From an uncultured Tenacibaculum sp. (lineage in GTDB: Bacteria > Bacteroidota > Bacteroidia > Flavobacteriales > Flavobacteriaceae), in NCBI RefSeq assembly GCF_947504135.1, contig NZ_CANNGG010000003.1, forward strand, positions 482,191 to 546,190: DNA of 64,000 bases. Reading direction: 5' to 3'. The notes below the pieces were generated by a model that was not told where the DNA came from, ran no database searches, and was given only the letters and a program-made list of their open reading frames with translations. A program made the translations under genes and the position numbers. Shown here in pieces: positions 47,997 through 62,396 of this stretch (within the stretch, counting starts at the first letter, position 1; each line of letters starts with the position of its first letter).

Positions 47997-49271
47997 ATGA
48001 AAAACATGAAAAAAATCGTCGTTGTTGGTGGCGGTTTTGCTGGATTAGAACTTATAAAAGGATTAGGAAATTCAGAAAATTATCAGATTATTCTAGTAGA
48101 TAGTAACAACTACAATTTCTTTCCTCCTTTAATCTACCAAGTATCCACTGGTTTTATGGAGCCATCTGCAATTAGCTATCCATTCAGAAAAATTTTAAGA
48201 AAATTTAAAAACGCCCGTTTTCGACTCGGCACCCTTGAAAAAGTTGTCCCAGAAGAAAACAAAATTGTAGTAAGTAATGGAGATATAGAGTATGACATCT
48301 TAGTAATGGCTACCGGTACAGAAACTAATTTTTTTGGAAATAAAAGCATTCAAAAGTATAGTTTACCAATGAAAACTATTAGTGATGCCTTATCTCTTAG
48401 AAATGTAATTTTAACTCGATTTGACCGTGCTACTAGAATTCATAACCCAGAAGAAAGAAAAAAGTGTTTAACTTTTGTAATTGCAGGAGCTGGACCTACT
48501 GGAGTTGAACTTTCAGGAATTTTATCTGAAATTAAAACATCTATCATCATAAAAGATTACCCCGAACTAGATAAAAATGACTTTGGTGAAATACATCTTA
48601 TTGATGGTCAGAGTTCTGTATTAGCTCCTATGTCTAAAAAAGCACAAGAATACACTTCTGAAAAGCTAAGTGAACTAGGTGTAACTCTGACTATGAATAC
48701 AATGGTTAACGACTTTGATGGTGAAACCGTGTATTTATCAAACGGAGAAAAAATAGAAACCAAAAATCTTATTTGGGCAGCTGGTGTATCTGCAAAAACA
48801 TTCGATGGTTTTTCAAAAGAAAGTTTTGGCCCTGGCAGAAGGCTAAAAACAAATCAGTTTAGCTTAGTAGATTCATACGATAATATTTTTGCGTTAGGAG
48901 ACTGCGCCTTGATTTCTGGCGATAAAAACTATCCTAACGGACACCCGCAATTAGCCCAACCAGCTTTACAACAAGCTAAAAACCTAGCGAACAATCTTAA
49001 AAGAAAAGATAGTAATTGGAAACCTTTTCAATATAACGACAAGGGTTCGTTAGCTATTATTGGAAGAAATAAGGCTGTACTTGACTTTCCTGGACAAAAA
49101 CAATCATTAAAAGGTTTTGTTGCATGGTTAATTTGGATTTTTGTACACATAATGGGGCTTGTTAACTTCAAAAATAAAGTAAGAACTCTATACAATTGGT
49201 TAGGATATTACATATATAAAGACCAATATTTTAGAATGATTATTAAACCTACCCAAAGGGAAACTAAATAA
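47997..49271 (+). CDS. Type II NADH dehydrogenase-like FAD oxidoreductase
   Basis: 424 residues (or 421 from the ATG at 48006). Two Rossmann motifs: KIVVVGGGFAGLELIKGL for FAD and FVIAGAGPTGVELSGIL for NAD(P)H. The FAD-contacting region YDNIFALGDCALI and AQPALQQAKNLANNL follow. The C-terminus has an amphipathic or membrane helix (FVAWLIWIFVHIMGLVNF) that binds the inner membrane. It likely passes electrons from NADH to menaquinone without pumping protons. It is a single gene with its own promoter box and terminator. Confidence 0.92.
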   Translation: MKNMKKIVVVGGGFAGLELIKGLGNSENYQIILVDSNNYNFFPPLIYQVSTGFMEPSAISYPFRKILRKFKNARFRLGTLEKVVPEENKIVVSNGDIEYDILVMATGTETNFFGNKSIQKYSLPMKTISDALSLRNVILTRFDRATRIHNPEERKKCLTFVIAGAGPTGVELSGILSEIKTSIIIKDYPELDKNDFGEIHLIDGQSSVLAPMSKKAQEYTSEKLSELGVTLTMNTMVNDFDGETVYLSNGEKIETKNLIWAAGVSAKTFDGFSKESFGPGRRLKTNQFSLVDSYDNIFALGDCALISGDKNYPNGHPQLAQPALQQAKNLANNLKRKDSNWKPFQYNDKGSLAIIGRNKAVLDFPGQKQSLKGFVAWLIWIFVHIMGLVNFKNKVRTLYNWLGYYIYKDQYFRMIIKPTQRETK

Positions 49272-49374
49272 AATATCAATGAAAATTTATTAAAAGCTAC
49301 CTATACTTGAATCAACTTAAAAACTAAAAAACTAAAAAAAATAAACATTAACTGTAAATTTCTTTTTCAAACAT

Positions 49375-49401
49375 AAGCATCAATAAATTGATGCTTTTTT
49401 T
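49375..49401 (+). terminator. Terminator after the NDH-2-like gene
   Basis: AAGCATCAA pairs with TTGATGCTT over a 4-base loop and ends in seven T. Confidence 0.85.
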
Positions 49402-49471
49402 ATCTTCAATTCTAAAAAAATAATACATACATTTACCCTAGATTAAGTTCTTTACATACTTCATCAACCGA

Positions 49472-49630
49472 AAAGGTTTTACTTAACTGTAGATTAATAG
49501 GGAATCGTGTGCAAATCACGAACTGTCGCGCAACTGTAAGTAACACACCAAAAGTTTTTATCCTAGTATATCCACTGCCAAAAGCGGGAAGGATGATAAA
49601 AACTGTTATAAGTCAGGAGACCTTCCTATT
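49472..49630 (+). ncRNA. Cobalamin riboswitch
   Basis: The core elements of the B12 (AdoCbl) riboswitch are present in order: AGGGAATCGTGTGCAAATCA, CGCGCAACTGTAAG, CCACTGCC, GCGGGAAGG and the B12 box AGTCAGGAGACC (49611-49622). AGGTTTT (49474-49480) can pair with the bases after the box to close P1. No B12 transport or synthesis gene follows: the next ORF is an acyl-CoA thioesterase 272 bases downstream. The riboswitch strand is the same as that gene. Confidence 0.9.
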
Positions 49631-49670
49631 CGGATATTGACAATGCTTTCGCGATTTGAAGCTTTTAGAT

Positions 49671-49733
49671 CATACCGATGATATATTTTTAACGCACACT
49701 TTTCTCTATGGAATGCTGTGCATTTTTGGTATG
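49671..49733 (+). other. Nested hairpin between riboswitch and thioesterase gene
   Basis: CATACC (49671-49676) pairs with GGTATG (49728-49733), and inside GCACA pairs with TGTGC. It may be the expression platform of the riboswitch or an independent RNA fold. The rest of 49631-49902 is AT-rich with no gene recognised. A 20-codon ORF from ATG 49708 is without support. Confidence 0.45.
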
Positions 49734-49902
49734 TCATTATTTTTCCCTCAAACATCTTATCGTTATTTAGTATTGCGAAGCATTTAATAGAGCTTTTAAA
49801 ATTAATGTTTAATTATAAAAAGTTTAAAGAGCGTAGTAATTCTATTTCTTTACATAAAAAAAAGAATTAGCAGCTACTTCAATCATCTAACATTTATTAA
49901 AA

Positions 49903-50331
49903 ATGACCACAGAAGAAAAAATAGCAAAATCGGAAACACGTATTTTCAAAGCTGTATTTCCAAATACAACCAATCATTATGATACCTTATTCGGAGGAAC
50001 TGCCATGCAATTAATGGATGAAGTTGCTTTTATTACTGCAACACGATTCTGTAGGCAAAAAGTTGTAACCGTAAGTAGTGATAAAATTGATTTTAAAAAG
50101 CCTATCCCTGCTGGAACTATTATTGAATTAGTAGGAAAAGTAAGTTATATAGGTAACAAAAGTTTAAAGGTCACCGTTAAAATTTTTACTGAACAGATGT
50201 ACTCTCATCACAGAGAAAAAGCCATTGAAGGTGAATTTACATTTGTTGCTATTGATGAAAACAAAAATCCTATTGCAGTAATAAAGACTGACACTGAAGA
50301 ACTACATTACTCACAACAAGAACATAATTAA
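49903..50331 (+). CDS. Acyl-CoA thioesterase (hotdog fold)
   Basis: 142 residues of the YciA/BACH-type hotdog family. The start FPNTTNHYDTLFGGTAMQLMDEVAFITATRFC carries the conserved catalytic Asn/Asp region and GG loop, followed by VVTVSSDKIDFKKPIPAGTII. It hydrolyses acyl-CoA to fatty acid and CoA; chain length is unknown. It is the first gene behind a cobalamin riboswitch, with a 272-base leader, which would be an unusual target. It ends at a palindromic terminator that overlaps the 3' end of trmN6. Confidence 0.88.
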   Translation: MTTEEKIAKSETRIFKAVFPNTTNHYDTLFGGTAMQLMDEVAFITATRFCRQKVVTVSSDKIDFKKPIPAGTIIELVGKVSYIGNKSLKVTVKIFTEQMYSHHREKAIEGEFTFVAIDENKNPIAVIKTDTEELHYSQQEHN

Positions 50332-50370: not shown

Positions 50371-51090
50371 TTACATCTTCAAATAAAAATCTTTAGTGAG
50401 ATTAATATAGGCATCAGTATACTGGTGCCTTTTTGTTTCTATAATTAACTCTTCTTCTTGGATTGTAGTCTCTACAAAAGAAAATTCTAACAAACTACGT
50501 TTGATTTCAGTAGTAGGAGTTCCTTTTACTCGACAAACTCTGTTTAGATATAAATTATACTTTTTTGCTAGTTCTATAAAGTTTTCTTCTTCTTTAAACG
50601 GTATAATGGTTGAAAACCTTCCGTTTTCGGACAATATTTCACTCACTCCTTTTAGTAGCTCTTCAAAAGACAGTGAACTCGTAAATCGTGCTTTATTTCT
50701 CGCTAAATCTTCCGTTTCGTAATTATCAGTATAAAATGGTGGATTGGATACAATTATATCATACTCTTCTTCATCTTCAGACATTTCTTCTGCAAATTCC
50801 ACAAAAGAAGCATTGTAACAAAAGAGCCTATCTCCCCAATCAGACTGCTCAAAATTCTCTACAGTTTGTTCATAAGCATCTCCATCTACTTCTACTGCAT
50901 CAATAGTCATGGCATCGCTTCGTTGCGCTAACATTAATGAAATAACACCTGTGCCTGAACCGACATCTAATATTGTGTCTGGAAACTCTCCTAAATTACA
51001 CCACGCTCCTAATAATACTGCATCGGTACCAACTTTCATCGCTGTTTTGTCTTGATGCACTGTAAACTCTTTAAATTTAAATGGTTTCAT
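50371..51090 (-). CDS. trmN6: tRNA1(Val) (adenine37-N6)-methyltransferase
   Basis: 239 residues of the YfiC/TrmN6 family. Motif I is ILDVGSGTGVISLML, the catalytic motif IIVSNPPFY (NPPF for N6-adenine), and the typical start FKFKEFTVHQDKTAMKVGTDAVLLGAW. It methylates A37 of a tRNA-Val. The ATG lies directly behind the stop of the 43-residue membrane protein gene (TAAATG), so translation is linked. Its last codons contain the palindrome that terminates the convergent thioesterase gene. Confidence 0.93.
   Translation of the reverse strand: MKPFKFKEFTVHQDKTAMKVGTDAVLLGAWCNLGEFPDTILDVGSGTGVISLMLAQRSDAMTIDAVEVDGDAYEQTVENFEQSDWGDRLFCYNASFVEFAEEMSEDEEEYDIIVSNPPFYTDNYETEDLARNKARFTSSLSFEELLKGVSEILSENGRFSTIIPFKEEENFIELAKKYNLYLNRVCRVKGTPTTEIKRSLLEFSFVETTIQEEELIIETKRHQYTDAYINLTKDFYLKM
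50410..50434 (+). terminator. Terminator of the thioesterase gene inside trmN6
   Basis: GGCATCAGTATACTGGTGCC forms a hairpin followed by TTTTT on the plus strand. It lies within the coding 3' end of the convergent trmN6 gene. Confidence 0.7.
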
Positions 51091-62246: not shown

Positions 62247-62316
62247 AAAAACTTCTTTTTAAATTAATTAAAAGAAAAAACTTGAATTGCTAGGTCGCTA
62301 AAAGGAGTAGAAAATT

Positions 62317-62385
62317 ACTGCTTTAGCATTTTTATTCTGAACTATTGTTCATTGAGGTTGCAATCAGTCAAATTTTTCCTCAAAT
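62317..62385 (-). ncRNA. SAM-II-type riboswitch in front of metK
   Basis: On the minus strand the leader shows P1 TTGAGG (5' side) with CCTCAA (3' side, 62351-62357). Inside the P1 loop lies ATTTGACTGATTGCA, and downstream TGCTAAAGCAGT. ACTG and GCA pair with CAGT and TGC of this last segment, giving the H-type pseudoknot with the conserved GCTAAAG. These are the hallmarks of the SAM-II (metA) aptamer known from Bacteroidota and alphaproteobacteria. The metK ATG is 70 bases further. Confidence 0.78.
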
Positions 62386-62396
62386 AAATATTGGTG

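Follow-up and report, generated by a model that had tools for sequence, protein, structure and literature searches.

A cobalamin riboswitch in front of an acyl-CoA thioesterase gene in an uncultured Tenacibaculum: probable remnant of a B12-repressed metE operon

What does a cobalamin riboswitch control when no B12-related gene follows it? This question is raised by a locus of an uncultured Tenacibaculum sp., located in a stretch of 64,000 nt (contig NZ_CANNGG010000003.1, positions 482,191 to 546,190, forward strand) that was analysed as a whole and is called the window here. It belongs to a genome of 2.62 Mb and 99.97% completeness (G000; G and L with a number denote genomes and loci, TE the thioesterase). 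In an earlier note on this DNA, the conserved core and B12 box of a cobalamin riboswitch were described, with no B12 gene beside it and a thioesterase ORF following after 272 bases. The covariance model (cmscan) confirmed the RF00174 aptamer at full length (model positions 1-189) with 87.4 bits, compared to a gathering score of 31.5 (E 3e-20). The absence of B12 genes within several kb was likewise borne out by ORFs and domain search, and the first plus-strand ORF behind the riboswitch encodes a 142-aa 4HBT (hotdog) thioesterase. The gap between both, measured from the Rfam end of the riboswitch, is 259 nt instead of 272. The locus comprises the following features.

49375-49396, plus strand: intrinsic-terminator-like hairpin with a T tail to approx. 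49404; the hairpin is kept in three aligned relatives
49457-49643, plus strand: cobalamin riboswitch aptamer RF00174
49611-49626, plus strand: B12 box AGTCAGGAGACCTTCC, from the covariance-model match and box comparison
49903-50331, plus strand: YciA-like hotdog acyl-CoA thioesterase (PF03061), probably once the last gene of a riboswitch-metE-TE operon
50371-51090, minus strand: methyltransferase gene, convergent with TE
50409-50430, plus strand: terminator-like hairpin 3' of TE, at the 3' end of the convergent methyltransferase gene

The riboswitch is the only one for cobalamin in the window according to the Rfam scan, and exactly two RF00174 matches were found in the whole genome; the second copy precedes a TonB receptor and lies near cobU/cobT/cobS-type salvage genes. 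The window box retains 15 of the 16 positions of the conserved B12 box AGYCAGGAGACCTGCC, the exception being T for G at 49624, and the family assignment by the covariance model is clear despite this altered base. Since the hairpin at 49375-49396 would end upstream transcription, the leader probably starts a transcript of its own. The thioesterase scores 65.5 bits with Pfam PF03061 (gathering score 20.6), which places it in the 4HBT hotdog superfamily. It shares the single 4HBT domain with YciA/Acot-type acyl-CoA thioesterases, but differs from the NCBIfam YciA equivalog by its score (50.5 bits, cut-off 162). The nearest solved chains are 2gvh from Agrobacterium and 2eis from Thermus (TTHB207), TTHB207 being apparently the plasmid-borne Thermus gene that is linked to a riboswitch.

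In close Tenacibaculum relatives, the gene order is riboswitch, approx. 190 nt, metE (774 aa, PF08267 and PF01717), approx. 60-80 nt and TE. At the corresponding place, the window carries a deletion.

49829-49888, no strand: metE deletion scar; approx. 2.4 kb lost compared to T. discolor, identical junction in the sister genome G078

The alignment of the window with T. discolor stops 6 bases before the metE start and resumes just before TE, and the scar ends 14 nt upstream of the TE start codon in both the window genome and G078. Six-frame protein searches of these two whole genomes gave no metE. The gene was recovered from nine relatives and also from G119, where a stop splits it; all 13 genomes checked have metH. 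The G119 metE (L183) consists of two overlapping pieces, due to a stop or frameshift, and is either a pseudogene or a sequencing error. In the TE tree, the window and G078 are sisters inside the metE-bearing clade (support 98/77), so that a single loss of metE, in the ancestor shared by both, is most likely. A second independent loss in T. adriaticum (G083) was considered and dropped, since its TE groups away from those of other Tenacibaculum and might have been transferred. The TonB receptor gene that had been suggested between riboswitch and thioesterase in relatives is ruled out as the deleted target by the metE found at that place. A coding remnant in the leader was rejected as well: the one ORF there (50 aa, 49718-49870) is short and looks like a chance occurrence, and in the alignment the leader corresponds to the non-coding leader upstream of metE in the relatives. 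Upstream, a DJ-1/PfpI-domain gene is located between NDH-2 and the riboswitch in relatives (L063:5507-6262, L067:7073-7828); the window lacks it (interval 49271 to 49375), and G078 and others have it.

Riboswitches of the RF00174 family in front of metE, encoding the B12-independent methionine synthase, belong to the same aptamer family as the window locus, match the ancestral order in its relatives and are expected to be repressed by B12. Such systems keep metE, whereas the window lineage deleted it, and the remaining target is an acyl-CoA thioesterase. The locus is probably the remnant of a B12-repressed riboswitch-metE-TE operon, in which TE was left as the sole gene behind the riboswitch and is itself a member of the B12-off response. 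The earlier note had left the choice between a deleted target and a B12-controlled thioesterase, and had taken transcripts ending before the thioesterase, together with a B12 gene at this place in relatives, as a sign of a simple orphan. A target was deleted, namely metE, and relatives do carry this B12 gene. This does not settle orphan status, since metE and TE stand together in the relatives. The riboswitch does not seem to be merely orphaned, because TE is recurrently riboswitch-linked in other genera and phyla and the leader is constrained in G078. Retaining the old metE switch for the second gene would be a natural step after the loss of metE. The window genome keeps metH and genes for B12 uptake and salvage, and should need B12 for methionine.

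The state of the leader in the window strain bears directly on this reading. Behind the aptamer, three structures can be drawn.

49644-49662, plus strand: P13-like stem-loop TGCTTTCGCGATTTGAAGC, same sequence in all eight close genomes
49653-49671, plus strand: alternative hairpin GAUUUGAAGCUUUUAGAUC, predicted to mask L13 and favoured only in the window sequence, by the private changes 49667A and 49669A
49677-49738, plus strand: long hairpin with a T-rich stretch behind it, candidate terminator of the expression platform (z -2.8 in the window, -4.1 and -3.6 in two relatives)

In this riboswitch class, P13 is placed between the aptamer and the start codon (PMC9600662). The L13 loop AUUUG is complementary over 5 nt to CAAAU of L5 in the window sequence, and an L5-L13 kissing loop through these bases is possible. 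Since the deletion is common to both lineages, the divergence between the window and G078 postdates it. The two differ at 4 of 187 positions in the aptamer, compared to 58 of 281 four-fold sites in three flanking genes (Fisher p 4e-10), and the aptamer is conserved even against the lower local rate of TE (dN 0.027, dS 0.110). Judging from these rates, the leader was still under selection after the loss of metE. In the 150 nt following the aptamer, 12 of 149 positions differ between the window and G078.

A true orphan in the window strain, with a riboswitch that became irrelevant after metE loss and is starting to decay while TE uses another promoter or is expressed independently of B12, is considered unlikely, although several changes in the window copy speak for it. 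The T at 49624, a private change in the aptamer at a position where 128 of 130 compared B12 boxes have G, turns the innermost U-G pair of the Rfam structure into U-U. Ten private changes were counted in the 150 nt after the aptamer, compared to 0 to 3 in seven relatives. Two of them, at 49667 and 49669, convert wobbles of the alternative hairpin to A-U pairs, and a shift from P13 to this anti-P13 hairpin is predicted: the GAUUUGA of the window is paired in it with a probability of approx. 0.9, compared to 0.0 in four relatives, with isolated segments. The P13 stem has a probability below 0.1 in the window, and just 0.1-0.3 in two of the four relatives, again with isolated segments. On the other hand, the 187-nt aptamer of the window has only a single private change, and in G078, carrying the same deletion, nearly the whole leader is unchanged (one private change in the 150 nt after the aptamer). 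No convincing promoter was detected between the leader and TE, where four promoter-like sites (one at 49773-49802) compare with 6.3 expected in a scan that does not cover Bacteroidota promoters. Moreover, TE is riboswitch-linked elsewhere. The window leader has possibly decayed or been retuned towards the ligand-free state, and the switch may already be biased to this expressed state; B12 regulation in the window strain is uncertain.

The reading of TE as a B12-off gene draws mainly on its position in other genomes. A B12 box was found at most 600 nt upstream of the TE orthologue in 89 of 109 loci, a redundant set consisting mostly of Chryseobacterium and including some species twice; eight of the 109 have the order riboswitch-metE-TE. 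Of 398 genomes sampled evenly across the taxonomic order, 91 bear TE, approx. 52 of them with a riboswitch at or near the gene (coordinates matched by hand). No riboswitch was detected nearby in approx. 39, e.g. in those of the Flavobacterium type with a ribB-TE arrangement. In Flavobacterium-type loci without a detected riboswitch (L228-L231, L266-L275), TE abuts the end of a ribB-like gene, named by eye. The order riboswitch-metE-TE is also found in Salegentibacter, Paenimyroides, Taibaiella and other Bacteroidota of the same class, while TE stands alone behind the riboswitch in Chryseobacterium, Crocinitomicaceae and others. Distant Bacteroidota have riboswitch-nrdB-nrdA-TE, and the variants riboswitch-metE-nrdB-nrdA-TE (L293) and riboswitch-nrdB-TE-nrdA (L290) were observed. 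In these Bacteroidota loci, Pfam served to assign the small subunits of ribonucleotide reductase (RNR), and the large subunits of L288, L293 and L294 were recognised by eye. The arrangement is riboswitch-TE-nrdB-nrdA in Thermus and AdoCbl-II riboswitch-nrdIEF-TE in Allomeiothermus. In Deinococcus, TE-nrdI-nrdE-nrdF-thioredoxin is preceded by AdoCbl-II matches that stay below the threshold (25 bits) and have the same location in two species, and TE is probably riboswitch-linked there. In Shinella, a hotdog protein of 264 aa follows riboswitch-metE, and another riboswitch precedes nrdHIEF; Sinorhizobium medicae has riboswitch-TE-LysR-DUF1852-methionine synthase and Glaciecola riboswitch-CWC protein-TE. 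Azospirillum was rejected as another case, TE being located upstream of the riboswitch and not behind it. According to the TE tree, gene arrangements arose or changed many times.

The place of TE behind B12 riboswitches thus recurs in independent contexts. Given this recurrence across genera and phyla, TE behaves like a B12-off regulon member that has apparently not been described so far and is in many cases accompanied by MetE and class I RNR. B12 riboswitch regulons with class I RNR (nrdAB, nrdIEF) include the TE family in Thermus, Allomeiothermus, Deinococcus and some Bacteroidota; they differ from the window locus, which has no RNR gene. TE could also be a mere passenger that came to lie next to metE by chance and is carried along behind the riboswitch without any function related to B12. 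This fits its position behind metE in Tenacibaculum and its unrelated places in some lineages, but is highly improbable: in Chryseobacterium, Crocinitomicaceae and others, TE stands by itself behind the riboswitch, in Thermus, Deinococcus and distant Bacteroidota its partner is RNR and not metE, and none of its three paralogues in the window genome has a riboswitch in the whole-genome RF00174 search.

If TE is a B12-off gene, cobalamin binding would stabilise P13 and the L5-L13 contact and repress the downstream gene, possibly through the hairpin at 49677-49738, and the thioesterase would be made when B12 is scarce. It could then cleave the acyl-CoAs that accumulate while AdoCbl-dependent mutases (methylmalonyl-CoA mutase, IcmF-like fused mutase) are without their cofactor, and CoA would be freed. 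Hydrolysis of acyl-CoAs from stalled mutases would be the most likely use of the enzyme, the substrate being a guess. MetH and class II RNR can be replaced by their usual B12-independent counterparts, and AdoCbl-dependent acyl-CoA mutases are the remaining major B12 users. No isozyme is known for these mutases. Mutase-family proteins are encoded in all 28 TE-bearing genomes checked, which, as only such genomes were included, is consistent with the proposal and not discriminating. The set comprises mostly a methylmalonyl-CoA mutase-like pair and an IcmF-kind protein of approx. 1100-1350 aa, named by length and domain only. Tentatively, and with more doubt than for the operon remnant itself, TE might complete the B12-off response of Bacteroidota, Deinococcota and Pseudomonadota as its missing third branch: MetE would back up MetH and class I RNR class II RNR, and cells with mutases lacking an isozyme would switch on TE instead, purging stalled propionyl-, methylmalonyl- or isobutyryl-type CoAs and freeing CoA.

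The targets of B12 riboswitches have been classed as biosynthesis, transport, cobalt transport and isozymes (PMC3766115), to which a desaturase was added (PMC2211319); the word thioesterase is absent from both papers. No link between a cobalamin riboswitch and a thioesterase was found in papers mentioning the two, represented mostly by their titles and abstracts. Two comparative-genomics papers on B12 from 2003 may reportedly mention a gene of the acyl-CoA hydrolase kind together with metE in rhizobia; in that case the novelty would be lower. The recurrence of TE suggests that a part of how bacteria respond to B12 shortage has been overlooked. If this holds true, B12-limited bacteria induce an acyl-CoA hydrolase besides swapping isozymes, and a so far unassigned thioesterase family with one structurally solved member (2eis) gains a physiological role. 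Marine and soil bacteria living on scavenged B12 are a natural test bed.

Several other genes were observed next to TE. A PAS-domain protein with an FLQG motif directly precedes it in L114, L292, L233 and L234 (Pfam on the L292 protein only); it lies behind a B12 riboswitch in L114 and L292, and no riboswitch was detected in L233 and L234. A small cysteine-rich protein precedes TE in L149, L104, L152 and L289, assigned to PF14375 (CWC) by Pfam in L149 and represented by ORFs that look similar by eye in the others. In L245, the riboswitch is followed by a PF01902 diphthamide-synthase-like protein and then by TE. Elsewhere in the window, a SAM-II riboswitch (62313-62387, minus strand, 65.3 bits) was identified in the Rfam scan, as was a pair of tRNAs (2260-2332 and 2398-2470) with equal Rfam score and identical printed sequence, located 65 nt apart.
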